Shown: positions 1 through 14,768 of the stretch, piece after piece
How positions within the stretch are numbered: the stretch's first letter is position 1
Layout of the letters: the number at the start of each line of letters is the position of its first letter
NCBI RefSeq assembly: GCF_040564635.1
Contig: NZ_CP159837.1
Span: 3,707,001-3,771,000 of the forward strand
Direction: 5' to 3'
Source: Planktothricoides raciborskii GIHE-MW2
GTDB taxonomy: Bacteria; Cyanobacteriota; Cyanobacteriia; Cyanobacteriales; Laspinemataceae
Length of the DNA: 64,000 bases
Program-made: the position numbers and the translations under genes
The notes under the pieces: model-generated
Told to the model about the DNA's origin: nothing
What the model saw: only the letters and a program-made list of their open reading frames with translations
The model's database searches: none

Positions 1-2
1 CC

Positions 3-953
3 CAGGAACTCTCGCAAGCCAATGAACAACTGCAACGGCAAGAACTGCATTTAAGAGAAAAAGCTGAATCTCTTGCCCAAACTTTACGGCAACTGAAACA
101 AACCCAAGCCCAACTAATTCAAAATGAAAAAATGACCAGTTTGGGGCAATTAGTCGCCGGAATTGCCCACGAAATTAACAACCCAGTCAGTTTTATTTAT
201 AGTAACCTCCAGCCCGCCCAAGAATATTTCCGCGATTTAATCGAACTGATATCTCTTTATCAAGAAAGATACCCAGAACCAGAGGCAGAAATTATTGAGT
301 TTGAAGAAGGAATTGATTTAGAATTTATCCAGACAGATTGCTTGAAACTTTTGGAATCAATGCAATTTGGTGCCGATCGCATCCAAAAAATTGTGTTAAG
401 TCTCCGCAATTTTTCCCGCTTAGACGAATCCGCACTTAAGTTAGTAGATATCCATGAAGGAATTGAAAGCACCCTGTTGATTCTGCAACATCGTCTTGAG
501 GGTTTTAACGCTGATAAAACCAGCGGCAGTAATCATCAGCCCATTGAGGTGATTAAATCTTACAGTGTTCTGCCCAAAGTTGAATGTTTTGCCGGGGAAA
601 TTAATCAGGTTTTGATGAATATTTTAACCAATGCGATCGATGCTATTGAAGAATGCAATCCACCAAAAGAAGGCCAGATCAAAATTAAAACTAGCTTGTT
701 AGAAGATGAGCGCGTGTTGGTAGCGATCGCGGACAAAGGTGGAGGGATTGATGTCGCTACGCAATCGCAAATCTTTGACCCATTTTTCACTACAAAACCC
801 GTCGGTCAAGGGACGGGATTGGGGCTTTATGTTTGCTATGAAACAATCGTCAACAAGCATCATGGGGATTTAATTTGTCGCTCAGAATTAGGGGTGGGAA
901 CTACTATAGAAATTATTCTGCCTATTCGCCACATTCCCGAAAAAAAGGGGTAG
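3..953 (+). CDS. Sensor histidine kinase, C-terminal part (5' end outside the window)
   Basis: The reading frame is open to the window edge, so this is the C-terminal part of a longer kinase. A glutamine-rich coiled coil leads into the H-box GIAHEINNP (His codon 168-170), followed by the N-box NILTNAIDAIEE and the G-boxes DKGGGID and GTGLGLYV of a GHKL ATPase. This is the Rpp/NtrB-like class common in cyanobacteria, which autophosphorylates on the His and passes phosphate to a response regulator. Sensor domains and partner are not visible. The catalytic core closely resembles that of the complete kinase at 34139-36925. An internal ATG at 132 is unlikely to be the start because the coiled coil continues upstream of it. 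Confidence 0.93.
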   Translation, partial: QELSQANEQLQRQELHLREKAESLAQTLRQLKQTQAQLIQNEKMTSLGQLVAGIAHEINNPVSFIYSNLQPAQEYFRDLIELISLYQERYPEPEAEIIEFEEGIDLEFIQTDCLKLLESMQFGADRIQKIVLSLRNFSRLDESALKLVDIHEGIESTLLILQHRLEGFNADKTSGSNHQPIEVIKSYSVLPKVECFAGEINQVLMNILTNAIDAIEECNPPKEGQIKIKTSLLEDERVLVAIADKGGGIDVATQSQIFDPFFTTKPVGQGTGLGLYVCYETIVNKHHGDLICRSELGVGTTIEIILPIRHIPEKKG

Positions 954-1007
954 GGTGGGTTAGACCCGCCGGTAATTTTAGCAACTAACAGATAACTTTC
1001 CCGTTGA

Positions 1008-2258
1008 TTACTGAATGGGAAAACCAGGAATGAGGCGATCAATTTCTGCCATTAACTGCATAGTTTCTTTCAGGGCGATCGCAATTTTTTGATAATGCAA
1101 AACCTCATCAAAAGATAAAATACGGCTGGCTTTCTTACGGTCTTTCAGCCATTTATCTAAAACCTGATAACCGCCAATCTTAAAATCCCACAATTCCGGG
1201 GTAATCCCAGCAAAATAGCGAGTTTTATTAATATAAACCCGCTGTTCTTTAGCTTGGTAAGTTACCTCCGTCACGGCATTATCCCCCTCACCACCAACTT
1301 TGGTAATTAATTTATTGAGTTTTTTGGATTTCATTAAATGTAAATTGACTAATTCCTCCCCTTTTGTCCCCAAGTCTCTAAATAATTGGTCATTGCTGGT
1401 TAAAGGAACGCGGGGAAAGTCGATTTTCAGAAATTCGGCATAGCGTTGGCGATAGGTAGGACTGTGGAAAATCCCGTAAATATAGTAAAAAATGGCTTCT
1501 GGGGTGGGGACGTAGCCCAGTTTTTCTCGAATAGCTTCCAAAAATCCTTTAGAAAGATTGGCGGATTTTTCAACGAAAAGATTCCCTTGTTGATTTTGCG
1601 TATCAGGATAGGTATAGAGGGGAAAAACAAAACCATTATTTGATGTTTTGGGTGACATACAGATTACTTCTACAATACTAGAAGCAACTTGTGCATGAGC
1701 AAACGTTTCCCCTTTGGTTAGTCGCGATGTTATCAGAGCAAGATTATTCCCAGCCAGCAGATGCCTCATCACTTCAGAACGCGGCATACAAATAAAACCT
1801 CTTGTTTGTCCTGTGTAGTAAGTAAACCTAACATCAAAAGGGCGATATAATACGGAAACAATTTTATCATTTTCTATTGGACTACGGTTTAAATCTTTTT
1901 GAGCCAGGTCAACTTTCCAGTCTCGTGCATCTTTCCCAAGATTATATTTATTTCGTGCTGTTTCAACCGGGAGAGAGGCAAAGTCTGTCACCGTATCCAT
2001 CACTTCCTGCGATGACCATTTGATTGTTAAACTATCCCTAGCGGTGACAATTCCCACAGAATTGACCGGCATGATTTCAGTAATTTTCCAGCCCTGATTA
2101 TATTCACCTAATAAATCAGTATCTTGGGGAATAAACAGATAAAATGGCGATTGGGGATTGAGTTCTGTCCAATCAACTGTGGTGACATCATGTTCTTCCA
2201 GATAGCGATACTTATTTTCTCGCGAACCGTAAACATGGGCGTGATAAATTTTAGTCAT
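1008..2258 (-). CDS. Type IIG/ISP restriction-modification specificity half, copy 1
   Basis: A 416-residue protein that looks like the C-terminal target-recognition part of a type IIG/ISP restriction-modification enzyme (type ISP C-terminal specificity domain). It begins MTKIYHAHVYGSREN, a segment that in full-length enzymes lies inside the polypeptide just after the methylase domain. Residues 1-50 and about 206-416 are nearly identical to the second copy at 6007-7248, whereas residues 50-205, the presumed DNA-recognition segment, are different. It lies 9 bp after hicA in a tight minus-strand operon whose first gene is the nuclease-methylase half (3552-5408). It has its own ATG, so it may act as a separate specificity subunit; alternatively it is a stranded fragment. 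DNA just downstream (about 951-1000) resembles that downstream of copy 2. Confidence 0.85.
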   Translation of the reverse strand: MTKIYHAHVYGSRENKYRYLEEHDVTTVDWTELNPQSPFYLFIPQDTDLLGEYNQGWKITEIMPVNSVGIVTARDSLTIKWSSQEVMDTVTDFASLPVETARNKYNLGKDARDWKVDLAQKDLNRSPIENDKIVSVLYRPFDVRFTYYTGQTRGFICMPRSEVMRHLLAGNNLALITSRLTKGETFAHAQVASSIVEVICMSPKTSNNGFVFPLYTYPDTQNQQGNLFVEKSANLSKGFLEAIREKLGYVPTPEAIFYYIYGIFHSPTYRQRYAEFLKIDFPRVPLTSNDQLFRDLGTKGEELVNLHLMKSKKLNKLITKVGGEGDNAVTEVTYQAKEQRVYINKTRYFAGITPELWDFKIGGYQVLDKWLKDRKKASRILSFDEVLHYQKIAIALKETMQLMAEIDRLIPGFPIQ

Positions 2259-2267
2259 AGTAATTTT

Positions 2268-2492
2268 CTACTCGGTTTTCCATTCTGTTTCTGGAATATT
2301 GGCACTGACCATAATGTTGCGTAAAGTACCAATGGGGAGGTTTCGTCCTTTATGATAAGGAACGATTACCTGAAGTTGATCTTCGATATTTCGCCACTTG
2401 CGATGACTGCCTTTTTGAGACACTAATTCAAACCCATATTGTGCTAAGATGCGCTCTACATCATCAGCATTCATTTGTCGAATGCGAGTCAT
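2268..2492 (-). CDS. hicA: HicA-family toxin (mRNA interferase)
   Basis: A 74-residue protein of the HicA/YcfA family, small double-stranded-RNA-binding-like mRNA interferases. The conserved core is visible: KGSHRKWRN with the catalytic-type His, a strand resembling VIVPYHKGRNLPIGTL, and a C-terminal helix. Its start overlaps the hicB stop by 4 bp, so translation is probably coupled. Order hicB-hicA is the reverse of the classical hicA-hicB but is common in cyanobacteria. The pair sits inside the restriction-modification operon, directly before the specificity half, so its loss would be linked to loss of the R-M genes. Family assignment is strong; toxicity is inferred. Confidence 0.9.
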   Translation of the reverse strand: MTRIRQMNADDVERILAQYGFELVSQKGSHRKWRNIEDQLQVIVPYHKGRNLPIGTLRNIMVSANIPETEWKTE

Positions 2493-2692
2493 CCCACCGA
2501 TACCTCTCTTAAAACCGCACCTGATTTAAGTTCAATCGTATCGGGTTCTAAATAAAGCGCGATCGCTTCCCGAATATTTTCTAAAGCTTCTGATTCAGTT
2601 TCTCCTGCTGACACACAACCGGGCAATTCTGGACACCAAACCGCCCAATCACCTGTTTCCGAGTCGAGTTCTAGAATGACACGCCATTTCAT
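2489..2692 (-). CDS. hicB: HicB-family antitoxin
   Basis: A 67-residue HicB-like antitoxin with the typical partial RNase-H-like fold: strands around VILELDSETGDW, then the signature WCPELPGCVSAGETESEAL followed by a helix. It lacks an obvious C-terminal DNA-binding extension, so autoregulation may need another factor. It precedes and overlaps hicA by 4 bp and neutralises that toxin by analogy with the family. It lies 51 bp after the PIN-domain gene in the same operon. Confidence 0.9.
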   Translation of the reverse strand: MKWRVILELDSETGDWAVWCPELPGCVSAGETESEALENIREAIALYLEPDTIELKSGAVLREVSVG

Positions 2693-2743
2693 ATTCTTTA
2701 CTCTGTTAAAAATTGGTTAATTTTGAACCATTATAGCAATATT

Positions 2744-3205
2744 TTAAGTTGATGTTGTGGGATTGTACCAACTTTCTATAGGTAAATCCCGCACGGTTTG
2801 AATCCGCTGAAAGTCGCTATCCGCAGACACCAAAATTAAATTGTGTTGCAGGGCGATCGCGGCAATCCATAGATCATTTTGACTGACTCCCAGATCGATT
2901 AGTCGAGTTCTTCGGCGTTTACTTTTCTCTTTTGGCCCAAAACGTCGCATCAACTCTGCCTGAACTGCGCCATAAATTTTAGCAGTGCTTGAGTCGATCG
3001 CATAGATGAATATATTCTGCAAAAATTTTTCGACTAGCTGAAGATTATTCTGCTGATTTTGAGAATTTTCGGCCATATAAATCAATTCAGCTTGTACAAT
3101 GACACAAGTTGAAACCTGCGCTTGACCGAGGGCTGATAACTGAGCGATAATATCAGGCTGATGCTGAATAGCTAAACTACAGTGATTGGTATCTAATAAA
3201 TACAT
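2744..3205 (-). CDS. PIN-domain toxin (VapC-like ribonuclease)
   Basis: A 153-residue PIN-domain protein. Acidic residues expected for the metal-binding site are visible: D5 in MYLLDTNHCSL, E40 in VIVQAELIYM, the Asp of SQNDLWIAAIAL near residue 111 and the Asp residues of LVSADSDF near the C-terminus. Such proteins cleave RNA as toxins of type II systems. The gene starts 14 bp after a small antitoxin-like gene, its probable partner. Both are embedded between the methylase half and hicBA. The RRRTRLIDLGVS loop before the third acidic residue is typical of the FitB/VapC branch. Confidence 0.88.
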   Translation of the reverse strand: MYLLDTNHCSLAIQHQPDIIAQLSALGQAQVSTCVIVQAELIYMAENSQNQQNNLQLVEKFLQNIFIYAIDSSTAKIYGAVQAELMRRFGPKEKSKRRRTRLIDLGVSQNDLWIAAIALQHNLILVSADSDFQRIQTVRDLPIESWYNPTTST

Positions 3206-3219
3206 AAAATTTCTTAGTC

Positions 3220-3537
3220 TTATTTCAATTCTTCCGTCTCATTGTCATCAGTAGCAATATAGAACTTGCTCCGAGATTGATGGACTAACTCTAAACATTC
3301 ATCAAAGTCATCCCCCTGCCATTGACCAATGTTTTCCAGGGTGTTTAAAATTGATGCGGCAGTAGAAGGCTTAGGTTTTACTATGGATGAATCAGAAGAC
3401 CGGGACTTGAGAAAAAGCAGAAATTCTAAGGCGATCGCCAATATTTCATCCGGTGTTTGTTCAATTTCTTGGCGCAATTGTTCTTTAACCGACACTGGGT
3501 TAGATTCAGGGTTGGTGATAATTTCTTGAGTTTCCAT
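3220..3537 (-). CDS. Antitoxin-like protein, partner of PIN toxin
   Basis: A small acidic protein with a helical N-terminal core (EQLRQEIEQTPDEILAIALE, then FLLFLK) like DUF2281-type antitoxins, and a disordered acidic C-terminus likely to bind the PIN toxin 14 bp downstream. A longer frame starts at 3552 in a TAATG overlap with the methylase stop, but the ATG at 3537 has a strong GGAGG ribosome site 8 nt upstream, so 3537 is the preferred start (105 residues). The family match is approximate; the role is inferred mainly from pairing with the toxin. Confidence 0.72.
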   Translation of the reverse strand: METQEIITNPESNPVSVKEQLRQEIEQTPDEILAIALEFLLFLKSRSSDSSIVKPKPSTAASILNTLENIGQWQGDDFDECLELVHQSRSKFYIATDDNETEELK

Positions 3538-3551
3538 AAATCTTTCCTCCA

Positions 3552-5408
3552 TTAGCTTGGCGATTTGGGATATTTTACCATTATAGCAACGGCCACCCCT
3601 TGCTGAATGTCAAACACATTCTTATCCTGTGAACCATCGGGGGCTACTTCTTTTTTCTTACTATTCCCATGCAAGTCTAGCAGATAGATTTTGTCAAAGG
3701 TTTTTGCTAAACTTTGACGCATTCCCCGAAAAGTAGGGTTATCTAAATAACCATGATTGGTAATAAAAGCGAGAATACCAGAACCAGTTTGATCAATCCG
3801 CCATTGCCCAAACCGGATAAATTTTACATAGTCATCTTGTAACCATTTGGGATTTTTTTCGTCTAAAGGTTTGCCATCCACAAAATAATAATCTTTGATT
3901 AATCCGGCAATCCATTCGCTTTTATTGGCAGAATGTCCAGCATAAGGGGGATTTCCTAACACTACCATTACCGGGGCATCCCGTTTAATTGAGGAGGCTT
4001 CGTTGGCTTCTTGGGCAACAAATTGACCGAATAAAATATCGGATTTTTTCATGGCTTCATCCAAGGTATTGGTTAAATAGATGCCTAACCGTTGTTTGTG
4101 GGTAAACTTGTAGCCTAATTCCTGAAGTTGTAGCCCTAATTTCAGATGCGCGATCGCATAAGGTGCCATCAACAACTCAAACCCAAATAATCGATTGAGT
4201 AAATTTTCCCGGACATAACTATCCCACTGAGAAGCCATGCCAATATCGGCTAAATTGCGGTAAATCTGCTTAATCACCGCATATAAAAACGTGCCGGTTC
4301 CCGTTGCCGGATCGAGAATTTGCACTCTGGGCTGTTGGGTTTTGCTATCTTTAGCCGTATCCGCTAAACCTAACGGTAAATCAAAATCTTCTTTGAGGAT
4401 AGCATCCACAGAACGGACAATAAAAGATACTACTGATTCAGGAGTATAATAAACCCCGCGACTTTTACGCAATTTGGCATTATATGCCGCCAAAAATGTC
4501 TCATAAAAATGCACTACGGGGTCTTCTTGTTGTTGGCCAAAATTTTCTAGAATGCTGCCCATATCTACTTGGGACAACAATTGCACCAAATCATCGATCG
4601 CCCAATCAATCTGACTCAGTGCATCGGTTTCCACAATGGTATTAAATAATCGCTTTAAAAATGGATTGGTTGCCGGAATATAAGTCCCTGCGGTGCGTCG
4701 AGTAAACTTGTCAGCCGTTGGATTTTGAGTATGACCAACTCTAGCCGCAAATAGCCCATAAGAAATTGTTTGAGCATACATATCGGCAAAGTCAGAATCA
4801 TTTAAATCGGGCAATAATACCTCGCTAAATCCCTGTTTTAATTGATGTAATTCACCAGATTTTTGTTGTTTTTCTGCTTCTAATTCCATCGCCGTTGTCA
4901 CCGCTAACCGAATCGCCTTGGTTAACCGAGCCATTTGTTCCGCTAATTGTTCAGGGCTACTAATAATTTCGCCCGAATAATTGAGAAACTGCTCCAGTAA
5001 TGCGGCTACTTGATCGGGGGATTTTAATGTCAGCTTTTGCTCATTTTTTTCGGCTAAAACCTCCTTGAGTCTTGGCTGACCGTTCACATACCAGCGAAAT
5101 TCTAAATAATTGGTTAAGATTAGATTGGGAAAAGCTTCTCGATAGCGTTGTAATTGCTCCGTTTTTTCTACTTGATCTAAATCTAAATCAATATCTTTGG
5201 CCTCAATATAACCGACCAGTAATTCTCGACGGTTAACCGTAAAATCGGGAACTCCTGCTTTATTCCCGGTTTCTTCAATGACCGCATCAATTCCTCGATC
5301 GCGATCGTCGATCAAGTTTTTTAATGCCGGATAATGGCTGCGTTCGCTACCTTTTTGTAGATTCTTTTGAATCGATTTGAGATAAGCATCAAAAGAGATA
5401 GTGGGCAT
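3552..5408 (-). CDS. Type IIG/ISP restriction-modification nuclease-methylase half
   Basis: A 618-residue protein with an N-terminal PD-(D/E)xK nuclease-like segment (PDFTV with D55, then YIEAKD with E69 and K71), a helical connector, and a gamma-class N6-adenine methylase. Methylase motif I is DPATGTGTF starting at D366 and motif IV is NPPY at 486-489. This is the order of type IIG/ISP enzymes, but the protein stops shortly after QGVAVAIMVKY, where full-length relatives continue into the specificity domain. That missing part is encoded separately at 1008-2258 and again at 6007-7248 (together about 1030 residues, a normal length). Four toxin-antitoxin genes follow directly. Whether the halves reassociate is inference. 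Confidence 0.88.
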   Translation of the reverse strand: MPTISFDAYLKSIQKNLQKGSERSHYPALKNLIDDRDRGIDAVIEETGNKAGVPDFTVNRRELLVGYIEAKDIDLDLDQVEKTEQLQRYREAFPNLILTNYLEFRWYVNGQPRLKEVLAEKNEQKLTLKSPDQVAALLEQFLNYSGEIISSPEQLAEQMARLTKAIRLAVTTAMELEAEKQQKSGELHQLKQGFSEVLLPDLNDSDFADMYAQTISYGLFAARVGHTQNPTADKFTRRTAGTYIPATNPFLKRLFNTIVETDALSQIDWAIDDLVQLLSQVDMGSILENFGQQQEDPVVHFYETFLAAYNAKLRKSRGVYYTPESVVSFIVRSVDAILKEDFDLPLGLADTAKDSKTQQPRVQILDPATGTGTFLYAVIKQIYRNLADIGMASQWDSYVRENLLNRLFGFELLMAPYAIAHLKLGLQLQELGYKFTHKQRLGIYLTNTLDEAMKKSDILFGQFVAQEANEASSIKRDAPVMVVLGNPPYAGHSANKSEWIAGLIKDYYFVDGKPLDEKNPKWLQDDYVKFIRFGQWRIDQTGSGILAFITNHGYLDNPTFRGMRQSLAKTFDKIYLLDLHGNSKKKEVAPDGSQDKNVFDIQQGVAVAIMVKYPKSPS

Positions 5409-5642
5409 TGAATTAATTTCCTATTTTGGTGATTGGCCGCAAACTGAAAAAAAGGCGATCGCGGGGGCAGGCTTTTACCGGCTTCTAATCTATCATATAT
5501 CTGGGGTCGTGCTTGCCCCGAATAAAATCATCTATCCTATAATCATCTATCATAAAGTCATAAACATATAGTAAAGCGAGTAAAGCGCGAATCATAAAGC
5601 GGAAAGTCAACGGGCTGAACGGTTAGCCGCCCAACTTCGATC

Positions 5643-5730
5643 TGCCGGACTATAACCGGAGGAATAGTTATTAGTTATTAGTTATTAGTTATTTGGAGTT
5701 TTTCACAAATAACTAATAACTGATAATCTG
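5643..5730. repeat. Left direct repeat flanking specificity cassette 2
   Basis: Contains GCCGGACTATAACCGGAGG followed by TTATTAGTTATTAG runs and an inverted AATAACTAATAAC. A similar stretch in the same orientation lies at 7498-7597, so the second specificity half is bracketed by direct repeats. Confidence 0.6.
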
Positions 5731-5734
5731 ATAA

Positions 5735-5805
5735 TTAGGACTTACGCAACGACTCTATATATAGGGTATTGGTGCGTTACTGCTCGGAACAACACCCTAC
5801 CGATA
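5735..5805. repeat. Dispersed repeat, inverted copy at 33999-34070
   Basis: The first 36 bases (beginning TTAGGACTTACGCAACGA) match the reverse complement of 34035-34070 at 35 of 36 positions, and the end ACACCCTACCGATA also matches. The middle differs. It resembles the remnant of a small insertion element. Confidence 0.7.
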
Positions 5806-6006
5806 TCTAATTATTGAAAAATGTCCGCTATATAGAGGTAGGGTGGGTTAGGTACGCCGGTAATTTTGACAACAAACAGATAACTTTTGATTCGTGCCTA
5901 TACCCAGCGACTGAGATGTATCGGATACATTAAACCAAGCCGCAACGGTGACGATAAAATATTCCCATTTGAGAGACTTAGCTACAAGTTTAGTCGTGTC
6001 AGTTCA

Positions 6007-7248
6007 TCAATGAATGGGAAAACCGGGAATGAGGCGATCGATTTCTGCCATTAACTGCATGGTTTCTTTCAGGGCAACCAAAATTTTTTGATAATGCAAC
6101 ACCTCATCAAAAGATAAAATCCGGTTGGCTTTCTTACGGTCTTTCAGCCATTTGTCTAAAACCTGATAACCGCCAATCTTAAAATCCCACAATTCCGGGG
6201 CGATGCCTTCAAAATAACGGGTTTTATTAATATAAACCCGCTGTTCTTTAGCTTGGTAAGTTACCTCCGTCACTGCATTATCCCCCTCACCGCCAACTTT
6301 GGTGATTAATTTATTGAGTTTCTTGGATTTCATTAAATGTAAATTGACTAATTCCTCCCCTTTTGTCCCCAAGTCTCTAAATAATTGGTCATTGCTGGTT
6401 AAAGGAATGCGGGGAAAGTCGATTTTCAGAAATTCGGCATAGCGTTGGCGATAGGTAGGACTGTGTAAAATCCCGTAAATATAGTAAAAAATCGCTTCTG
6501 GGGTGGGCAGATAACCCAGTTTTTCTCGAATCGCTGTCAAGAAATCTGAAGAAAGGTTAGGAGATTTTTCAGAAAATAAATTACCTTGTTCATTTTGAGT
6601 ATCGGGATAGGTGTATAGGGGAAAAACTTGATTTCCTTCTCGACTTGTAGTGGATAATACACAACTTTCTGCTGGAACATCTGAGCACCACACATGATGA
6701 AAACCAATAGTTGCTTGTTGTCTTGAGCAAAGCAATGATAAATTTTCTTTAACCATATTTTGTTGTAATACGGTTCTAGGGTAATCCATTGCCACTGTAC
6801 TGTAGTAACAAGGTCGCCAATCAAAAGGACGATAAAGGCAATTAATCAGACCTGTTTCCCAATTTTCATCTGCACGAATTTGCGTTCTAGCAGTCTCTAC
6901 TTGCCAATCTCTATTATCTTTGATGTTATATTTATGCTTGATTTCATCATTAGAGAATTTCCGATCTCTAAAATCTTGAAATCTTTGTCTAAGTATCTCG
7001 CGATCGAAATCAATGGCAAAATGATCTCTATGAGTTTGAAAGCCTAGAGTATTAACGGTAAAAATTTTAGGTATTTCCCAATAATTATCATATTCTAATC
7101 TTAAATCAGTATTTTGGGGAATAAACAGATAAAATGGCGATTGGGGATTGAGTTCTTGCCAATCAACTGTGGTGACATCATGTTCTTCCAGATAGCGATA
7201 CTTATCTTCTCGTGAACCGTAAAGATGGGCGTGATAAATTTTAGTCAT
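6007..7248 (-). CDS. Type IIG/ISP restriction-modification specificity half, copy 2
   Basis: A 413-residue homologue of the protein at 1008-2258. Its first 50 residues and last 210 residues are almost identical to copy 1, also at DNA level, while the central 150 residues are unrelated in sequence. This is the pattern expected of alternative target-recognition domains exchanged between conserved ends. The methylase half lies about 600 bp downstream on the same strand, and only a short remnant of a methylase tail remains upstream (7271-7447). The second cassette is flanked by direct repeats. It may be a silent specificity cassette, an alternative subunit, or the remnant of a second complete system. 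Confidence 0.83.
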   Translation of the reverse strand: MTKIYHAHLYGSREDKYRYLEEHDVTTVDWQELNPQSPFYLFIPQNTDLRLEYDNYWEIPKIFTVNTLGFQTHRDHFAIDFDREILRQRFQDFRDRKFSNDEIKHKYNIKDNRDWQVETARTQIRADENWETGLINCLYRPFDWRPCYYSTVAMDYPRTVLQQNMVKENLSLLCSRQQATIGFHHVWCSDVPAESCVLSTTSREGNQVFPLYTYPDTQNEQGNLFSEKSPNLSSDFLTAIREKLGYLPTPEAIFYYIYGILHSPTYRQRYAEFLKIDFPRIPLTSNDQLFRDLGTKGEELVNLHLMKSKKLNKLITKVGGEGDNAVTEVTYQAKEQRVYINKTRYFEGIAPELWDFKIGGYQVLDKWLKDRKKANRILSFDEVLHYQKILVALKETMQLMAEIDRLIPGFPIH

Positions 7249-7270
7249 AGTAATTTATTAAGAAAATACA

Positions 7271-7447
7271 TTAAGAAAATAGTTGGTTAATTAGCTCGTC
7301 ACGAGTAAGCTCAAAATGAGTTTCAATATCTCGTAAAATTGCGCTGAGAGTACCAATATCATCGAAACCAATATCTCTAAGTTTAGTTTTTCGTCTTTGG
7401 CTTTGCTCTTTTCATATCCCATATTTTACCATTATAGCCACCGCTAC
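7271..7447 (-). pseudogene. Remnant of a methylase-half C-terminus before specificity copy 2
   Basis: The minus strand encodes VAVAIMVKYGI and then a stop. The 18 bases coding AIMVKY are identical to the end of the methylase half at 3552-5408. The same frame continues after the stop for about 45 codons (including RDIGFDDIGTLSAIL) to a stop at 7271, 22 bp before specificity copy 2. The continuation is not recognised. The simplest reading is that a second nuclease-methylase gene once preceded copy 2 and was deleted. Confidence 0.6.
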
Positions 7448-7497
7448 TGATTTTGTGCTGCCTGACGACCCTGTGGATAGTATCAATCAACCAGCGA

Positions 7498-7597
7498 TCG
7501 CCGGACTAGAACCAGAAGCATATTTATGGGTTATTATTTATTATTTATTAGTTATTAGTTATTTGGAGGTTTTCAGAAATAACTAATAACCAATAAT
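7498..7597. repeat. Right direct repeat flanking specificity cassette 2
   Basis: Contains GCCGGACTAGAACCAGAAGC, then TTATTAGTTATTAG and an inverted AATAACTAATAAC, matching 5643-5730 in order and orientation. Confidence 0.6.
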
Positions 7598-7603
7598 TTG
7601 AAG

Positions 7604-8167
7604 TTACTGAAAAATATCCGCGATCGCGATCGCCAAACCAGGAAGTAATGGCGAAGCTAAAGTATCCCCATCTAACAAAGTATTAACTCGCTGAAGTTGG
7701 GCATCATGGCGACGATAGATATCGAGGGTTTTCAGTCGCCAATTCACAATCCAATATTCTTGCACTCCATAAATAGAATAGAGTTTTAACTTTACCTCTT
7801 TATCTCGTTGTTCATTGGTTTCTCCTTCCGAGAGAATTTCTACCACAATTTCCGGGGCAACAATCAAATGTCCCGCGTCGTCCACCCCCACCGCCAAACG
7901 CTCTTTGCTAATCCAAACTAAATCGGGAATTACTGCATCAGTGGGGCTAAAAATTAACCCTGGGGTTTGGATTGGTTTACCTAGTTTAGTTTGTCTAGAC
8001 CAGCGTTCTAGTTCAAACTGAATGTTACCAATGGCACTTTGATGCCGAATATGGGGGGCACGAGTCACGAATAGTTCTCCATCTATAATTTCATAACGTT
8101 TCCATCCGCCATCATCAGGCATGGCGTCAAGGTCTCTGGTTGTCCAGCGTAGTAAGTTAGCGACCAT
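7604..8167 (-). CDS. Uma2-family putative endonuclease
   Basis: A 187-residue Uma2 (DUF820) protein, the PD-(D/E)xK-like family massively expanded in cyanobacteria. The expected acidic site is visible: VIPDLVWISKERL, then PEIVVEILSEGE and a downstream RDKEVKLKLY with the conserved Lys. The family's biological role is unknown; nuclease activity is predicted from the fold only. A short copy of its 3' end (coding A-E-I-F-Q-stop on the minus strand) recurs at about 8299-8330, upstream of its start, suggesting that a tandem Uma2 gene was lost. Confidence 0.88.
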   Translation of the reverse strand: MVANLLRWTTRDLDAMPDDGGWKRYEIIDGELFVTRAPHIRHQSAIGNIQFELERWSRQTKLGKPIQTPGLIFSPTDAVIPDLVWISKERLAVGVDDAGHLIVAPEIVVEILSEGETNEQRDKEVKLKLYSIYGVQEYWIVNWRLKTLDIYRRHDAQLQRVNTLLDGDTLASPLLPGLAIAIADIFQ

Positions 8168-8423
8168 TGCAGTTTACCGTTGAGTCTATTTCTATTTTAA
8201 TCACTTATTTTACCGATCGCACTAGAGATCGCTCTTGGGTGACTAATAAATTGAAAAAAAGCGATCGCCATATTGAGAAATATCTGTGGTTTATTTCATT
8301 GAAGTTACTGGAAAATCTCCGCGATCGCTTAAGCCGCGATCACCTAAAATCAGTAATTGTTCTTACGATCGCCCCATCATAAAGTGGAAGAAAATCTAAA
8401 GATTATGGTATTTGACCCATGTT

Positions 8424-8439
8424 TTTGACTTAAGTCAAA
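8424..8439. promoter_or_regulatory. Perfect 16-bp palindrome, candidate CRP/FNR-family operator for hcp
   Basis: TTTGACTTAAGTCAAA is its own reverse complement. The half-site TTGAC-N4-GTCAA resembles FNR/DNR/NtcA-type boxes, which control hcp in other bacteria. Its centre lies about 41.5 bp before a start site predicted from the -10-like TAAAAT at 8461-8466, the usual position for class II activation. The regulator is not in the window. Confidence 0.55.
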
Positions 8440-8460
8440 CCATTGGCAATTTCCTGGCCT

Positions 8461-8466
8461 TAAAAT
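8461..8466 (+). promoter_or_regulatory. hcp: Possible -10 element of hcp
   Basis: TAAAAT lies 45 bp before the ATG, just after the palindrome, with a ribosome site (AGAGG) near 8500. There is no good -35 box, which fits a promoter that depends on an activator. Confidence 0.4.
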
Positions 8467-8510
8467 AGTAAACAAATAGTAAACAAAGATACTTTTCCAG
8501 AGGATTTACG

Positions 8511-10166
8511 ATGTTTTGCGAACAATGCGAACAAACAGCCAGCGGACAAGGATGCCACCAATGGGGCGCTTGTGGCAAAAGTCCAGAAGTCAATGCGGTT
8601 CAAGACTTATTAATCTATCTCTTGCGTGGGCTTGCTCCCGTGGCAATCCGAGCGAATCAATTGAGTATTTCCACTCAGGAAATCGATCGCTTTACCTGTG
8701 AAGCTATCTTTGCCACCATGACCAATGTTAACTTCGATCAACATCGGTTTACGGATTATATTCGACGGGCGATCGCATACCGGGAAAACCTCAAAACCCA
8801 AATTGAACAAGCCACGGGTGCCACAGAAAACTGGTCAACAATTTCCTGTTTTGAGCCTGATTTTGAGGACAGTTTATCCGCCCAAGGGGAAGATATCGCC
8901 CTGAAATTTATCAGCCAATCTGGTGCAAATGTCGATATTTTTTCCCTCAAATTAACGGTACTGTATGGCATTAAAGGCGTTGCTTCCTATGCCTTTCATG
9001 CTCAAGAAATGGGGCAGGAAGACGATCGCATTTATCAATTTTGCTATGAAGCCCTCGCCGCTTTAGAACGCCAAGACCTCACCCTCGATGATTGGCTGAA
9101 ACTGGCGCTAAAAGTTGGCGAAATTAATCTGCGGACGATGGAATTGCTTGATGCTGGACATACCGGCACTTTTGGTCATCCCGTCCCCACTCCCGTTCCC
9201 CTGAATGCCAAAGTAGGCAAAGCAATTCTCGTTTCCGGTCACGATATTCCCCAACTGGAAGCGGTGCTCAAACAAACCATGAACAAGGGAATTACTGTCT
9301 ACACTCATGGGGAATTATTGCCCGCCCACGGTTATCCCCACCTGAAACAAAACTACCCTCATTTTTATGGGCATTATGGCACCGCATGGCAGAATCAAAC
9401 TAAGGATTTTGCTAAGTTCCCAGGGGCGATTATTATTACCACCAATTGTTTAATGCCGCCCCACGAAAATTATCAGAATAAATTATTTAGCCTTGGGCCT
9501 GTTGGCTATCCCGGATTGAATTCTATTCCTAATGGGCCTGATGGACTGCCGGACTTTTCCCCCGCAATTAATAAAGCTTTAGAGTTACCAGGATTTACGG
9601 AAGCAACCGAACCTCGTCAGGTGACGACTGGTTTCGCCCGCAATGCGGTTTTGAGTGTGGCCGATCGCGTCATTGAAGCGGTGAAAGCGGGACAAATTCG
9701 CCACTTTTTCCTAGTTGGTGGCTGTGATGGGGCAAAACCCGATCGCAACTATTACACCGAACTGGTGGAAAAAGTCCCCAGTGATTGTGTGGTGCTCACC
9801 CTCGCTTGTGGCAAGTTCCGTTTCTTCGACCAAAATTTAGGCGATATTGGTGGCATTCCCCGCTTATTGGATGTGGGACAATGTAATGATGCATATTCAG
9901 CGATTCAAATTGCGATCGCCCTAGCCAATGCGTTTAATGTGGGGGTGAATGAATTGCCCTTATCCATGATTTTGTCCTGGTATGAACAGAAAGCGATCGC
10001 GGTCTTACTCACCTTACTTTATCTAGGAATTCAAGATATTCGCTTAGGCCCAACTTTGCCCGCATTTTTATCACCTAATGTGTTGAAATTGCTATCGGAT
10101 ACATATCATATTAAACCCATCAGTACACCGGATGAAGATTTAGCCGCTTGTTTGGCTAAGGTTTAA
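8511..10166 (+). CDS. hcp: Hybrid cluster protein (hydroxylamine reductase)
   Basis: A 551-residue Hcp. The N-terminal cysteines C3-x2-C6-x8-C15-x5-C21 match the class I pattern that binds a cubane [4Fe-4S] cluster. Hybrid-cluster ligands are visible near GGCDGAKPDR, LACGKFRF and GQCNDAYSA. The family reduces hydroxylamine and, in proteobacteria, NO, and takes part in protein S-nitrosylation; it acts in the cytoplasm under low oxygen or nitrosative stress. Length and motifs are complete. No NADH-dependent Hcr reductase gene is adjacent, so electrons probably come from ferredoxin. A CRP/FNR-like palindrome upstream suggests redox or nitrogen control. Confidence 0.97.
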   Translation: MFCEQCEQTASGQGCHQWGACGKSPEVNAVQDLLIYLLRGLAPVAIRANQLSISTQEIDRFTCEAIFATMTNVNFDQHRFTDYIRRAIAYRENLKTQIEQATGATENWSTISCFEPDFEDSLSAQGEDIALKFISQSGANVDIFSLKLTVLYGIKGVASYAFHAQEMGQEDDRIYQFCYEALAALERQDLTLDDWLKLALKVGEINLRTMELLDAGHTGTFGHPVPTPVPLNAKVGKAILVSGHDIPQLEAVLKQTMNKGITVYTHGELLPAHGYPHLKQNYPHFYGHYGTAWQNQTKDFAKFPGAIIITTNCLMPPHENYQNKLFSLGPVGYPGLNSIPNGPDGLPDFSPAINKALELPGFTEATEPRQVTTGFARNAVLSVADRVIEAVKAGQIRHFFLVGGCDGAKPDRNYYTELVEKVPSDCVVLTLACGKFRFFDQNLGDIGGIPRLLDVGQCNDAYSAIQIAIALANAFNVGVNELPLSMILSWYEQKAIAVLLTLLYLGIQDIRLGPTLPAFLSPNVLKLLSDTYHIKPISTPDEDLAACLAKV

Positions 10167-10175
10167 CAAATACCC

Positions 10176-10417
10176 GTAGGGGCAAAGCATTTCGGCAGAT
10201 AAATTATTGATAAAAACCATAACTTATATACCGAAATGCTTCGCCCTCCCAATAATACCGTAGGGGCGAAGCATTTCGGCTGATAAATTATTGATGAAAA
10301 CGAATAACCTATATACCGAAATGCTTCGCCCTCCCAATAATACCGTAGGGGCAAAGCATTTCGGCTGATAAATTATTGATGAAAACGAATAACCTATATA
10401 CCGAAATGCTTCGCCCT
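10176..10417. repeat. Three tandem hairpin repeats of about 84 bp
   Basis: Units begin near 10176, 10260 and 10345. Each has GTAGGGGC(A/G)AAGCATTTCGG at the left and its complement CCGAAATGCTTCGCCC at the right, so each folds into a long hairpin. The array follows hcp directly and could also end its transcript. Confidence 0.85.
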
Positions 10418-10460
10418 AGTCTAAGATAAAAACTACACCGTTTTTCAGATTACTGAACCG

Positions 10461-10982
10461 CGATCGGGCGAAGCATTCCGGTATTTAATTTAATATTGTA
10501 GGGGCGAATGGCCATTCGCCCCTACGAAATGCTTCGCCCCTACAAATCATTGTGGTTTATTTAATAGAAAACCGCTGTAATATCAAGCGCGATCGCATCT
10601 ATCCGCGATCGCCTCGGATATCAGAAACCGGGTTTCTTTGACTAAACCACGATCGGGCGAAGCATTCCGGTATTTAATTTAATATTTTCAGCAATAATTT
10701 GTCTGCCGGAATGCTTCGCCCCTACAAATGCTTTATGGTTTATTTAATAGAAAACCGCTGTAATATCAAGCGCGATCGCACCTATCCGCGATCGCCTCGG
10801 ATATCAGAAACCGGGTTTCTTTGACTAAACCACGATCGGGCGAAGCATTCCGGTATTTAATTTAATATTTTCAGCAATAATTTGTCTGCCGGAATGCTTC
10901 GCCCCTACAAATGCTTTATGGTTTATTTAATAGAAAACCGCTGTAATATCAAGCGCGATCGCACCTATCCGCGATCGCCTAT
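10461..10982. repeat. Three tandem 183-189-bp palindromic repeats
   Basis: Units begin with CGATCGGGCGAAGCATTCCGG at about 10461, 10650 and 10833. Each contains the hairpin arms GCGAAGCATTCCGG and CCGGAATGCTTCGC (altered in the first unit), HIP1 sites and the run AGAAACCGGGTTTCT. Units two and three are almost identical, so the expansion is recent. No gene is seen between 10167 and 11120. Confidence 0.85.
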
Positions 10983-11120
10983 TTTTTACGCTTAGGGGCA
11001 ATATCAGTAAAAAGCCGATCGCCCACTTCTGTCTCTGTGTCTTGTGTAACGCTGTGGTGAATTGACTATTTTAATCACCCACCAAGTTATCCCGTAATTG
11101 CTGTGTTCTCACCAACTTAA

Positions 11121-14100
11121 TTACACATCGTTTAACCAGTTTTGCAGCACATCCAATAAATTATCTTGTTCCGAGATAAACCCGCGCATGGGTGGATCGA
11201 TGTTTAGGGGATGATTTGCGATGCGATCGCTAATCCAAGCAATAGAAATTTTTCGAGATTTTGCCAACGATAAAGCTATTTCATATAAAGCAGATTGTTT
11301 AAAATTAGGGTTAATCTCTAACCCGCGTAAGTCAAAAATTAAGGCGATTTTTTCAACTTGTAAAGAAATCGTTAGGTTAGCAAGTTCTCGCTTTAAATCT
11401 GATTTACCTTTGATGGTGGGAATGGGTTCATTGTGGGCAATTTGCTCAAATATTTGATTAGCTAATTCTTGGGCAATTTCAGCGATATCGGTTTCTTTGA
11501 CGAGGATTTCCAGTTGTTCAAGGCAACAAAATATTTTGTTAGAGACTGGTTGCAGTTGAGAGCAAATATCTTGTTGTGCTTCTAGTTGTTCTGCGATTAA
11601 GTTGCGATCGTTGTGCCATGCCATGCAAAAATCTGGGTAGGGTAAATCTTGGGCAATATTCCAGAGAACTTTGTAGCAAGTTGTAAAGAGATTAAAGTCA
11701 TTTTCGTAAGTTTCATCGTTGAAGTAGGGCTGTAAGGCAGTGACTACATATTTTCGGTTTTCATTGGTGGTGATAATTTTCCCTAAACAATAGGCAGCCG
11801 CGATATGGGTATCTTCATCTTCAGGGGCTTCGAGAACTTTGACTAAAGCAGCGATCGCCGTTTGATTGCCTGGGTCGATTTCTCCTAAACTCCTGGCAGC
11901 CAGCCAACGGGTATCTTTATTTTTAGTAATTTCGAGAAGTCTAACCAAAGCAGTAATCGCCGTTTCATTGCCTTGTCCGATTTCCCCTAAACAATTGACA
12001 GCCTTCCTGCGGGTATGTTCATCTTCAGTCTTTTTGAGAACTTCGACCAAAGCAGCGATCGCTGTTTCATCGCCTTGTCCGATTTTCCCTAAACAATAAA
12101 TAGCCTGCCTATGGGTATCTTCATTATCAGTGTCTTCGATAACTTTGACCAAAACCGCGATCGCTGTTTTATTGCCTTGTCCGATTTTCCATAAATATTC
12201 GGCAGCCGCGATATGGGTATCTTCATCTTCAGTGGTTTCGATAACTTTGACCAAAGCAGTAATCGCTGTTTTATTGCCTTGTCCGATTTTCCCTAAACTA
12301 TCGACAACCTGCCAACGGGTACTTTCATTATCAGTAGTTTCAATAACTTTGACCAAAGCAGTAATCGCTGTTTTATTGCCTTGTCCGATTTCTCCTAAAC
12401 AATCGACAGCCTGCCAACGGGTATTTTCATCTTCAGTGGTTTCGATAACTTTGACCAAAGCAGCGATCGCTGTTTCATTGCCTGGGTCAATTTGCCCTAA
12501 ACTCTCGGCAGCCTCGATAAGGGTATCTTCATCTTCAGTGAGATCGAGAAATTTGACCAAAGCAGCGATCGCTGTTTTATTGCCTTGTCCGATTTTCCCT
12601 AAACTATCGACAACCTGCCAACGGGTACTTTCATTATCAGTAGTTTCGAGAATTCTGACCAAAGCAGCGATCGCCTTTTTATTGCCTGGGTCGATGTTCC
12701 CTAAACAATAGGCAGCCCACCAACGGGTATCGTCATTATCAGTATCTTTGATAACTTTGACTAAAGCCGCGATCGCCTTTTTATTGCCTGGGTCGATTTC
12801 TCCTAAACTATCGGCAGCTTCCCTACAGGTATCTTCATTGCATTGAGGATGTTCAAGAATTTGACAAAGTTCTTGAATAGTGCGTTTACGGTCAGTTTGG
12901 GGCAAAATTTCCCTGGCACCGAATTTGATTGGATCGAGAAAGGTGCGCCATTGTTGTTTTTCCTGGTGGTAATAGCCAAAACCCCACTGGACTATCTGCT
13001 TGACAATGGCGTCAGCTAGAGAACAGGTTTTAAACTCACTAATTCCTGCTGCTGCCATAAAATAGGCGCGATCCTCATAAAAACCTCCATCACACCCGTC
13101 ATCAAAATTCACTAACTTTTCTATAAACTCCTCTTTCTTCTTATTAAACTTCTTAAACTTCTCCTGATCTGTAACATCGCTACGACCCAACCAGAATAAA
13201 ATTACCTGTTTCCATTGCGGTTCAAAAATGCGGTATTCTTTCCCTGGCACTGGACAATTTACATGATTGCGAGGTAAAAAATCATCCCAATCATCCACCG
13301 CTAAGGCGGCAAAATATTCTTGAAACGTCAGATGTAAAAAAGCATAAATCGGTTCTGGCAAACGTTCTATCGGATTCAACCATCCCAAATTTTTAAAGCA
13401 TTGAAAAATTTGGCGACTTCCCATAATTGTCACTATCCAACTTTCTGACAACTGGAACCGGGAAACCTCATATTTTTGTTCTATTGCAGCCAATGCTAAC
13501 CGGGCTAAAGCTTGATCTATTTCTGAACGTTGATTTAAAATTTTCTCATCGGCTTTCCAGCGATAAACCCAATCAACAAACTGACAATATAACTCTGCTT
13601 GCGTATCCGGCAACCCGCCCCCCCCGGTCTGCCAAATTTGGCACAACATCCACAACCGCAAAGGATTCTGAATTAACCGATTGAAAGCCAAATTTTCTGA
13701 TTTGGCCAACTCTTTCTCTAAACTTTCTCCTGTGGTAGCATCTCCTATTTCCTTAAACCAATTGCCAATATACTGATTGACCTGTTCCCGGCTAAACTCC
13801 AAATTTTTAAATACATCAAACCCGGAAAAAGCATTTTTATCCGCTTCCCAAACATTCACGCGACAAGTCACTACCACTCGCGCATCTTGCAGCCATCCTC
13901 CTAATAGGGCAGAAACATGACGGCTTTCTATTTTCGAGGTCATTTCATCTAGACCATCCAACAATAACCAAATCCGATTTTTCTCTTGTTTCAGCGCGTC
14001 AATGGTCAGATTTTCACCTGCCAGCCATAAGTCCTCAATATATTTATAAACCGTTGCTTGGGTTAAATCTGCTAAAGATACCCAAATCGGCAATCCCAAA

Positions 14101-14768
14101 TTTTGGTCTAAAATCCAATCCGCAATTTTCTGTAACCGCGTCGTTTTCCCCGAACCCGGTTCGCCAATAATGGCAATTTTTCGCCCTTGACTAATTTCGC
14201 TTTTCCCTTGTCGCAATACTTCCTCAAAAAAGCGCTTTTCCTCAATCGGAATCAGTGTTTTTTTTTCCGTTTCTTCTGGCTGATTTTTTAATTTAGGTTT
14301 AGGCGGTTTGCGTTCAACAATGGCCAAAGGAACATAAACCTTTTCCAGTTTTGGCGCTATCCCATAGGCATTGGTAAAAGGGTTGGTGGTGAGTTCTTTT
14401 TGCTGCGCGAGGTTTCGTTCGCAAATTTCGCGCCAGTTGATCGGTTTTTCCGCAGGTGTCGCGGGTTGTGCTTGTAACCATTCCTGATATTTCTCTTCTA
14501 ACCATTCGAGTAAACGCTTGCCTTTTTGTGGACCTGAATCTTCTAATGTCTTGCAACCCTTGAGGTTTTGCTTACTGAATTCAAATTTATTAAAAATTGC
14601 TGTTTTAAATTTTTTGTAATTTTCGGTTTCCTTGGGAATCTTGTTTTGAACCTCTTTATCCGGTTTTTCCTTATTCTCTTCACTCCATCGGATCCGGAAA
14701 ATCTTGGTTTCCTCTGGTGATAATCCAAACTCATCAGCAATTTCTCTTAAAAAATTATCCCAAGTCAT
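11121..14768 (-). CDS. NACHT ATPase with HEAT-repeat array (bacterial NLR-like)
   Basis: A 1215-residue STAND ATPase. It has a short helical N-terminal domain (1-100), a linker typical of cyanobacterial NACHT proteins (TTNPFTNAYG, then VYVPLAIVERK), a Walker A GEPGSGKTT at 202-210 and a Walker B LLLDGLDEM at 268-276, then winged-helix and helical domains. From about 640 to 1010 there are ten full HEAT units of 34 residues plus one partial unit, each close to TAIAALVKVIETTEDENT...LGEIGQGN. The C-terminal 120 residues are separate. Related NACHT proteins sense invaders and act in antiphage defence; the trigger and effector here are unknown. The repeat DNA (102-bp period) is very similar between units. 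Neighbours give no partner. Confidence 0.9.
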   Translation of the reverse strand: MTWDNFLREIADEFGLSPEETKIFRIRWSEENKEKPDKEVQNKIPKETENYKKFKTAIFNKFEFSKQNLKGCKTLEDSGPQKGKRLLEWLEEKYQEWLQAQPATPAEKPINWREICERNLAQQKELTTNPFTNAYGIAPKLEKVYVPLAIVERKPPKPKLKNQPEETEKKTLIPIEEKRFFEEVLRQGKSEISQGRKIAIIGEPGSGKTTRLQKIADWILDQNLGLPIWVSLADLTQATVYKYIEDLWLAGENLTIDALKQEKNRIWLLLDGLDEMTSKIESRHVSALLGGWLQDARVVVTCRVNVWEADKNAFSGFDVFKNLEFSREQVNQYIGNWFKEIGDATTGESLEKELAKSENLAFNRLIQNPLRLWMLCQIWQTGGGGLPDTQAELYCQFVDWVYRWKADEKILNQRSEIDQALARLALAAIEQKYEVSRFQLSESWIVTIMGSRQIFQCFKNLGWLNPIERLPEPIYAFLHLTFQEYFAALAVDDWDDFLPRNHVNCPVPGKEYRIFEPQWKQVILFWLGRSDVTDQEKFKKFNKKKEEFIEKLVNFDDGCDGGFYEDRAYFMAAAGISEFKTCSLADAIVKQIVQWGFGYYHQEKQQWRTFLDPIKFGAREILPQTDRKRTIQELCQILEHPQCNEDTCREAADSLGEIDPGNKKAIAALVKVIKDTDNDDTRWWAAYCLGNIDPGNKKAIAALVRILETTDNESTRWQVVDSLGKIGQGNKTAIAALVKFLDLTEDEDTLIEAAESLGQIDPGNETAIAALVKVIETTEDENTRWQAVDCLGEIGQGNKTAITALVKVIETTDNESTRWQVVDSLGKIGQGNKTAITALVKVIETTEDEDTHIAAAEYLWKIGQGNKTAIAVLVKVIEDTDNEDTHRQAIYCLGKIGQGDETAIAALVEVLKKTEDEHTRRKAVNCLGEIGQGNETAITALVRLLEITKNKDTRWLAARSLGEIDPGNQTAIAALVKVLEAPEDEDTHIAAAYCLGKIITTNENRKYVVTALQPYFNDETYENDFNLFTTCYKVLWNIAQDLPYPDFCMAWHNDRNLIAEQLEAQQDICSQLQPVSNKIFCCLEQLEILVKETDIAEIAQELANQIFEQIAHNEPIPTIKGKSDLKRELANLTISLQVEKIALIFDLRGLEINPNFKQSALYEIALSLAKSRKISIAWISDRIANHPLNIDPPMRGFISEQDNLLDVLQNWLNDV

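Follow-up and report, generated by a model that had tools for sequence, protein, structure and literature searches.

A putative split Type IIG restriction–modification locus with two specificity genes and embedded toxin–antitoxin genes in Planktothricoides raciborskii

How can a restriction–modification (R-M) enzyme work when its nuclease–methyltransferase chain ends before the part that reads DNA, and two separate genes encode that part? The question is raised by a locus near the start of a 64,000-nucleotide (nt) stretch of the cyanobacterium Planktothricoides raciborskii GIHE-MW2 (contig NZ_CP159837.1, positions 3,707,001 to 3,771,000; hereafter the window, whose coordinates are used throughout). 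The locus comprises one gene for a nuclease–methyltransferase subunit (RM) and two genes for specificity subunits (S1 and S2), with toxin–antitoxin (TA) genes between RM and S1. We favor, with a probability of about 0.72, a split Type IIG system, in which RM would act in trans with an exchangeable S subunit carrying a single target recognition domain (TRD), and in which an array of TA genes is embedded. The locus is real and recurrent, and it is probably functional.

A nuclease–methyltransferase chain without its specificity part

PADLOC profile PDLC03610, which describes one-chain Type IIG enzymes over 1096 positions, is matched by RM in two stretches (the best covering 4-495) and by both S1 and S2 at positions 658-1075. 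The RM and S halves align end to end with one-chain relatives, and RM ends where the fused relatives continue from NVFDIQQGV... via a short linker into the stretch with which S starts. An earlier note on this DNA had claimed that the nuclease–methylase half (3552-5408) stops where a specificity part should follow; the continuation in fused relatives and the match of S1 and S2 to the missing part of PDLC03610 bear this out. RM contains the motifs PDFTV...EAK near the N-terminus, DPATGTGTF, and NPPY. Its nuclease motif was found by pattern, and its Pfam matches are methyltransferase families, with no nuclease match. All features of the locus lie on the minus strand, and the coordinates and strands given earlier proved correct:

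1008..2258, minus strand: S1, separate specificity subunit, 416 amino acids (aa); PF18135 Type_ISP_C, 5.3e-97, residues 61-404
2268..2492, minus strand: HicA toxin; PF07927, 7.2e-17
2489..2692, minus strand: HicB-like antitoxin; PF15919, 8.3e-10
2728..2739, minus strand: probable fossil RM 3′ stub before hicB, TTGCTATAATGG; exact copy of the letters of the RM 3′ end
2744..3205, minus strand: PIN-domain (VapC-like) toxin; PF01850, 4.4e-13, with VapC models all below their cut-offs
3220..3552, minus strand: putative VapB-like antitoxin; DUF2281 at 18.5 bits, below the cut-off of 26.5
3552..5408, minus strand: RM subunit, PD-(D/E)xK-like nuclease motif and gamma N6-adenine methyltransferase, 618 aa; N6_Mtase, MmeI_Mtase, and Eco57I matches
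3578..3589, minus strand: TTGCTATAATGG within the RM 3′ end; exact match
6007..7248, minus strand: S2, second specificity subunit with a different recognition region, 413 aa; PF18135, 4.8e-96, residues 61-401
7271..7357, minus strand: remnant of a second-type HicA, last 28 residues and stop; 24/28 identical (by eye) to the SR001 HicA that precedes S1
7421..7447, minus strand: remnant RM 3′ stub, 27 nt (VAVAIMVKY); 89% identical to 3570-3596

Read 5′ to 3′, the order is RM 3′ remnant, HicA remnant, S2, spacer, RM, VapB-like gene, PIN gene, RM stub, HicB, HicA, and S1. Two pairs, one VapBC-like and one HicBA, are encoded in the 1.3 kb that separate RM from S1, and these intervening genes rule out a read-through fusion of RM and S1. 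HicB and HicA are adjacent, the arrangement of a HicBA toxin–antitoxin pair. The PIN gene is preceded by the small gene with the sub-threshold DUF2281 match, and this pair is conserved in L088, L142, and L147 (handles with G, C, and L denote our genomes, contigs, and loci); the small gene probably starts at 3537, matching an open reading frame (ORF) of strain SR001. A promoter scan was uninformative (18 sites against 20.8 expected). Searching the genome with S returned the two S genes of the locus, one fused relative (1093-aa frame), and one distant relative (1034-aa frame); a search with RM led to these places again and, in addition, to one weak methylase match.

The position of the break bears on how the enzyme could work. 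By our own count along a profile alignment, the S start corresponds to about residue 1156 of LlaBIII, and the TRD core of LlaBIII begins at residue 1205 (PMC4872093). The first ~50 S residues therefore appear to be part of the methyltransferase domain, which would place the break inside that domain and leave RM alone with an incomplete one. S1 would then be made up of the end of the methyltransferase domain, one recognition region, and a conserved C-terminal part (C-part). RM would thus carry the nuclease and methyltransferase motifs without the methyltransferase end and the DNA-reading domain, and the missing part would be supplied in trans by a single-TRD S subunit; lacking these parts, the enzyme would have to assemble to work.

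Regarding the enzyme class, nuclease and gamma-methyltransferase are found in one chain, no translocase or ATPase was found, and S is a separate subunit, which is consistent with Type IIG, a class whose members cut at a fixed distance and are stimulated by AdoMet. The Type ISP label of the earlier note has to be dropped: S does carry the C-terminal PF18135 domain, but Type ISP enzymes have a helicase-like ATPase located between nuclease and methyltransferase in a single chain, and no ATPase or translocase was found in the RM chain, with no helicase or ATPase family among the Pfam matches of its 618 aa. Of the 1578 aa of LlaBIII, only residues 840-1457 are matched by the family profile. A BcgI-like S with two opposed TRDs is ruled out, as a single PF18135 unit spans each S subunit.

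Split and fused relatives, and the exchange of recognition regions

The split layout is not confined to this strain. S2 matched 117 of 388 genomes of the order (E<=1e-25), and RM matched 61 of 388 genomes of the class (E<=1e-60). Many of the frames are fused (about 1030-1160 aa); split S frames measure about 400-440 aa and split RM frames about 610-680 aa. The stretches that we read were chosen for split frames, plus some fused ones, and are not a sample of the split:fused proportion. We tabulated 32 loci with the split layout, other genera and families included. Left out of the 32 are L148 and L149 (same as L089 and L088), L140 (no S found), L144 (S fragment), second S genes of counted loci, S genes without RM on the stretch (e.g., L104, L121, and L049), the decayed locus of G001 (L054), S genes after a fused enzyme (L051, the second in L053, and L113), and partial or fused frames. 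Within the 32, RM is broken or spread over two frames in G272, G027, and G554a, RM of G501 is truncated where the contig begins, and S of G482 takes up two frames. RM is 71-85% identical to its nearer split relatives and 50-62% to the farther ones; since the split recurs in relatives with conserved RM, the layout is not due to chance. In many loci, the stop codon of RM overlaps the start of the following gene or lies very near it, and in G244 (L105) a single RM gene is followed by two S genes.

The earlier note had asked whether relatives carry both halves fused, which, together with a lack of expression and of a methylation motif, would make the split mere debris. Fused forms do exist; however, the split form also recurs intact, and the two alternate on the RM tree (44 rows, 19 split and 25 fused). 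The split/fused label changes at least six times along this tree, four of these changes being forced by well-supported branches, with the bootstrap unsettled. Such alternation indicates that splits and/or fusions occurred repeatedly. As to a phage source, a scan of viral_contigs with the RM chain, which covers close relatives only, found none, and the S2 search of a phage collection yielded two Listeria phage records, at 26%, and no others.

Some further arrangements were seen among the relatives. In Ca. Paraprochloron terpiosi (L050 and L049; CP073341.1 = L091/L099), two S genes are intact though the RM beside one is in pieces, and a third S beside it is also broken. Standalone S genes that follow a fused RM-S gene directly or lie close to it (L051 8449-9729, L053 17705-19015, and L113 6317-7558) might be spare heads of a one-chain enzyme. 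A second group of split RM chains (L053, L117, L138, L139, L141-L143, L145, and L146), about 650-680 aa where intact, starts with 165-200 residues that lack a match to the RM described here and lack PDFTV...EAK, i.e., with another N-terminal domain.

Recognition regions are exchanged between otherwise similar loci. In three genomes of one genus (G043, G084, and G116), RM is 95-98% and the S ends are 75-86% identical, and the recognition regions only 24-35%. RM chains 83-84% identical to the RM of the window (G084 and L088) are followed by recognition regions of the S1 type as well as of the S2 type. Compared with the S1 locus, Hormoscilla G171 (L092) has a recognition region (87%) that is more alike than its surroundings (RM 81%, C-part of S 78%). 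Among fused enzymes, L096 and L122 share 98% in RM and 97% in the C-part, and 32% in the recognition region. Within genomes, the pairs S1/S2 of the present genome (G000), Sa/Sb of G244, S1/S2 of G027, and the standalone S with its fused neighbor on C100 of G018 have C-parts of 91-96% and recognition regions of 27-32% identity; standalone S genes on C132 of G018 compare with the fused one there at 91-92% and 34-35%, respectively. In G000 and G027, the two C-parts of the genome resemble each other (93 and 96%) more than those of any other genome of the set (80-83%; SR001 left out).

S1 and S2 themselves share 83% of residues 1-60, 28% of residues 61-212, and 93% of residues 213-416, which agrees with the earlier description of two genes nearly identical at both ends and unrelated in the middle. 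On the DNA level, identity is 95-97% over the first 120 nt and 88-98% over most of the last 480 nt. The C-parts differ mostly at synonymous sites (nonsynonymous rate dN 0.045, synonymous rate dS 0.297; dN/dS 0.15). Of 83 columns that are fully or almost fully conserved in 32 other S sequences, S1 departs from one and S2 from two, as against 0-5 for each of the other S sequences left out in turn, and neither S shows signs of decay at these columns. The suggestion of a two-subunit enzyme with exchangeable recognition modules is well supported by such comparisons, both through the 32 split loci and through nearly identical RM chains accompanied by unrelated recognition regions. S1 and S2 would dock via the same conserved ends, giving two alternative targets set by whichever S binds. 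As one S serves nuclease and methylase, a new S would re-aim both at once, and the recurrence of the layout in related cyanobacteria suggests a modular, easily re-aimed defense. Switching by inversion was rejected, since S1 and S2 are direct and not inverted repeats, and no recombinase was recognized among the ORFs listed for 1-12000, not every one of which was profile-scanned.

Toxin–antitoxin genes and the history of the second specificity gene

Two features had been absent from the earlier note: the embedded TA genes, and remnants which suggest that S2 goes back to a second operon whose RM has been lost. A TA-like gene lies between RM and S in 27 of the 32 split loci, and a toxin gene in 22; TA-like genes were also found within 1.5 kb upstream of RM in two and within 1.5 kb downstream of S in 13 loci. 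The query set was drawn largely from inner regions, so that this 27/2/13 contrast favors the inner site, and Fisher p-values are not used because the loci are related (e.g., G583 and G554a share the same TA genes). Among 18 fused loci, TA-like genes occurred once upstream and four times downstream. By Pfam, the inner families comprise HicA, HicB-like, PIN, DUF2281, DUF433, DUF5615, HepT with nucleotidyltransferase, PemK-like, and Phd/YefM. DUF433/DUF5615 and DUF2281 are counted here as families of TA modules, which Pfam itself does not state; without the loci resting on these alone (G583, G554a, G531, and G554b), the inner count is 23/32. Pfam tallies of small ORFs (76 inner, 38 upstream, and 79 downstream, with 2 kb flanks) agree in direction with the inner bias: HicA 12, 1, and 4; HicB-like 10, 3, and 4; PIN 9, 2, and 5; DUF433 5, 0, and 4. 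TA genes occur downstream too, some of other kinds (HigB, ParE-like). In some loci, the inner TA gene is just an antitoxin, or a truncated antitoxin (G259; hicB in SR001). G244a and G238 have only a HicB-like gene with Pfam matches below cut-offs (UPF0150 and DUF7387), which we took as HicB because it precedes HicA in L050 and L110.

TA modules of exchangeable families would thus fill the space between RM and S, most likely as embedded addiction or back-up defense units. The strongest competing explanation, to which we give nearly even odds, regards the TA genes as neutral passengers and the RM/S junction as merely a tolerant insertion site. The downstream TA-like genes in 13 loci fit it, as do the ten loci without an inner toxin gene and, among them, the five without any inner TA gene; on the other hand, the inner bias (even allowing for the query set), the unrelated TA families at the same place, and the tight gene overlaps in many loci speak against simple tolerance. 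A more specific role, in which the position between RM and S ties survival to a balanced supply of subunits, and subunit loss, subunit swap, or phage inhibition frees the toxin, appears rather improbable. A HicB-like antitoxin that runs in frame into S behind an RM in two frames (G272; L112 6980-8425) would fit such a guard, whose toxin would be replaceable and whose S subunits would be exchangeable heads.

The history of S2 can be partly read from remnants. The closest named record is Planktothricoides sp. SR001 (99%; L087), from which the window differs by 4 nt in S1 and 3 nt in S2. RM differs by 34 nt, all within 3993-4995 and none in the rest of the gene; a 12-nt indel lies in this tract too, which is likely a recombination import. 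These RM differences are mostly synonymous (dN 0.0056, dS 0.066); because they are confined to a tract that looks imported, they also reflect selection in the donor line. In SR001, the HicB-HicA part (2268 to about 2540) is replaced by a truncated HicB and another HicB-HicA pair, and the HicA tail before S2 is of the type of this second pair. The letters TTGCTATAATGG occur in two exact copies in the genome, 850 nt apart, at the RM 3′ end and before hicB. In window shuffles, 0.01 copies are expected, and the reversed pattern also has 2 genome matches, so it is place and closeness that count, not number. In G043, G084, and G116, hicB directly follows the RM 3′ end (TTGCTATAATGG), and G001, of the same genus as the present strain, retains two RM 3′ stubs, each followed by VapB-PIN. 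Hence, VapB-PIN may have been inserted between RM and HicB, duplicating the RM end. S2, preceded by an RM stub and a HicA tail, would be the leftover of a second tandem operon copy whose RM gene was deleted. The 3′ flank shared by S1 and S2 (937-999 and 5825-5887) had been considered as proof of tandem duplication; this argument is weakened because the region 930-1007, with the dispersed repeat element 937-999, has 7 genome matches, itself included.

We consider it unlikely that S1 alone is used and that S2 is a silent donor giving recognition regions by gene conversion via the shared ends. It is true that S2 is isolated, that no RM gene remains immediately upstream of it, that the core between its shared ends is unrelated, and that in pneumococcal tvr loci of the 2+2 form, methylation is driven only by the hsdS upstream of tvrATR (PMC6265443). 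However, S2 is intact, has normal conserved residues, and is kept in SR001, and this one other strain shows no alternative S1 allele. That the locus is debris, i.e., a broken one-chain enzyme with a pseudogene copy, is very improbable: it would account for the stubs and remnants around S2 and for the decayed loci in G001 and G027, but the frames are intact, change is mostly synonymous, and the same split is found intact and conserved in other genera and families.

Several observations nevertheless weigh against a split Type IIG system with exchangeable S and embedded TA genes. In five of the 32 split loci (G272, C113 of G018, G171, G191, and G131), no TA gene separates RM from S, so TA is not required. 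In G244, the two C-parts resemble those of other genomes (92 and 94%) as closely as they resemble one another (91%), and the pairs of G365 (recognition region 74%) and C132a/b of G018 (79%) are alike throughout. The first 60 codons of S1 and S2 give a dN/dS of 1.2 (dN 0.125, dS 0.104, from about 20 changes), and all three S2 differences from SR001 are nonsynonymous. The RM gene is broken in G027 and only RM stubs are left in G001, so that some S genes may be unused. Furthermore, two AlphaFold2 models from shallow alignments (mean predicted confidence, pLDDT, 51.2 and 38.6) were too poor to show an interface. A placement of the RM/S break in a beta-hairpin came from a local stretch of such a poor model (pLDDT about 54-73, residues 600-640) and is not relied on.

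Regarding the surroundings, plus-strand stretches at 5560-5690 and 7500-7549 read by eye like C-terminal tails of Uma2, near an intact Uma2 gene (7604-8167). Positions 10166-10990 contain tandem 85-nt and 183-nt repeats with a GAAATGCTTCGCCC-like core, in inverted orientation too, and 11121-14768 encode a 1215-aa NACHT protein with HEAT repeats and NACHT C-terminal domains, a possible further defense protein.

Comparison with known systems

One-chain Type IIG enzymes (PDLC03610; Nostoc plasmid records annotated 'type ISP restriction/modification enzyme') have the same order of nuclease, gamma-methyltransferase, and PF18135. They form a single open frame of about 1030-1160 aa, whereas here there are two genes with TA genes between them and two S genes. 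Among solved structures, 7lo5/7lvv ('Site-specific DNA-methyltransferase', 1029 aa), which we take to be DrdV, is the best match of the family profile (E 3.2e-66, profile 298-917), and the match runs across the RM/S junction; that enzyme is one chain, and the present one is split. 'Type 1 1/2' methyltransferases likewise pair a catalytic subunit with a separate single-TRD S (PMC3874165). The Type IIB enzymes BcgI and BsaXI (RM + S) likewise combine nuclease and methyltransferase in one subunit and place specificity in the other (PMC3874165, PMC9159934), and BsaXI RM and S reconstitute on mixing (PMC9159934). Their S has two TRDs, whereas each S here has one PF18135 unit and the break apparently lies inside the methyltransferase domain. 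The Type ISP enzymes LlaGI and LlaBIII have a related methyltransferase–TRD part and, by name, the same C-terminal Pfam family (PMC4872093); they differ in being one chain with a helicase-like ATPase, as against two genes and no ATPase found here. The 'Type 1 1/2' catalytic subunit is, to our knowledge, without a nuclease domain.

Embedded TA genes and multiple S cassettes also have parallels. The SpnIV tvr locus has several S cassettes and TA homologues (tvrAT) inside an R-M locus, but is of Type I, with a tyrosine recombinase and half-S cassettes; there, TvrT restrains transcription of the recombinase, and the authors saw no evidence of addiction (PMC6265443). In the RRDM island, DarTG2 lies between hsdS and hsdR as a second defense layer in an R-M operon (PMC12255303); RRDM is of Type I, whereas the modules found here are small, of VapBC, HicBA, or HepT type, and their family varies from locus to locus. 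In Campylobacter jejuni, other genes characteristically lie among the hsd genes (PMC5183652), a Vibrio Type I cluster harbors tgvAB (PMC11411939), and the M and S genes of EcoKI overlap by 1 nt and are translationally coupled (PMC3510504).

The S module of Type IIG enzymes may form the C-terminus or a separate subunit (PMC4081073), and a table of organizations lists separate S subunits only with two TRDs (Table 4 of PMC3874165). In the excerpts drawn on, a survey of HicA contexts says nothing of R-M operons whose subunit genes flank HicA (PMC10865869), and PMC8262939 and PMC12707154 did not mention the present layout. A literature search by title and abstract start, covering no preprints and few subscription journals, did not find a split single-TRD Type IIG enzyme or TA genes in this position. 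As far as the literature covered shows, the combination of a Type IIG RM with a separate single-TRD S, more than one S per RM, and TA genes of changing family between them is apparently undescribed. Such loci could be used to test how hosts safely change restriction specificity, in which direction fused and split enzymes derive from each other, and if R-M systems are guarded by the TA genes embedded in them.

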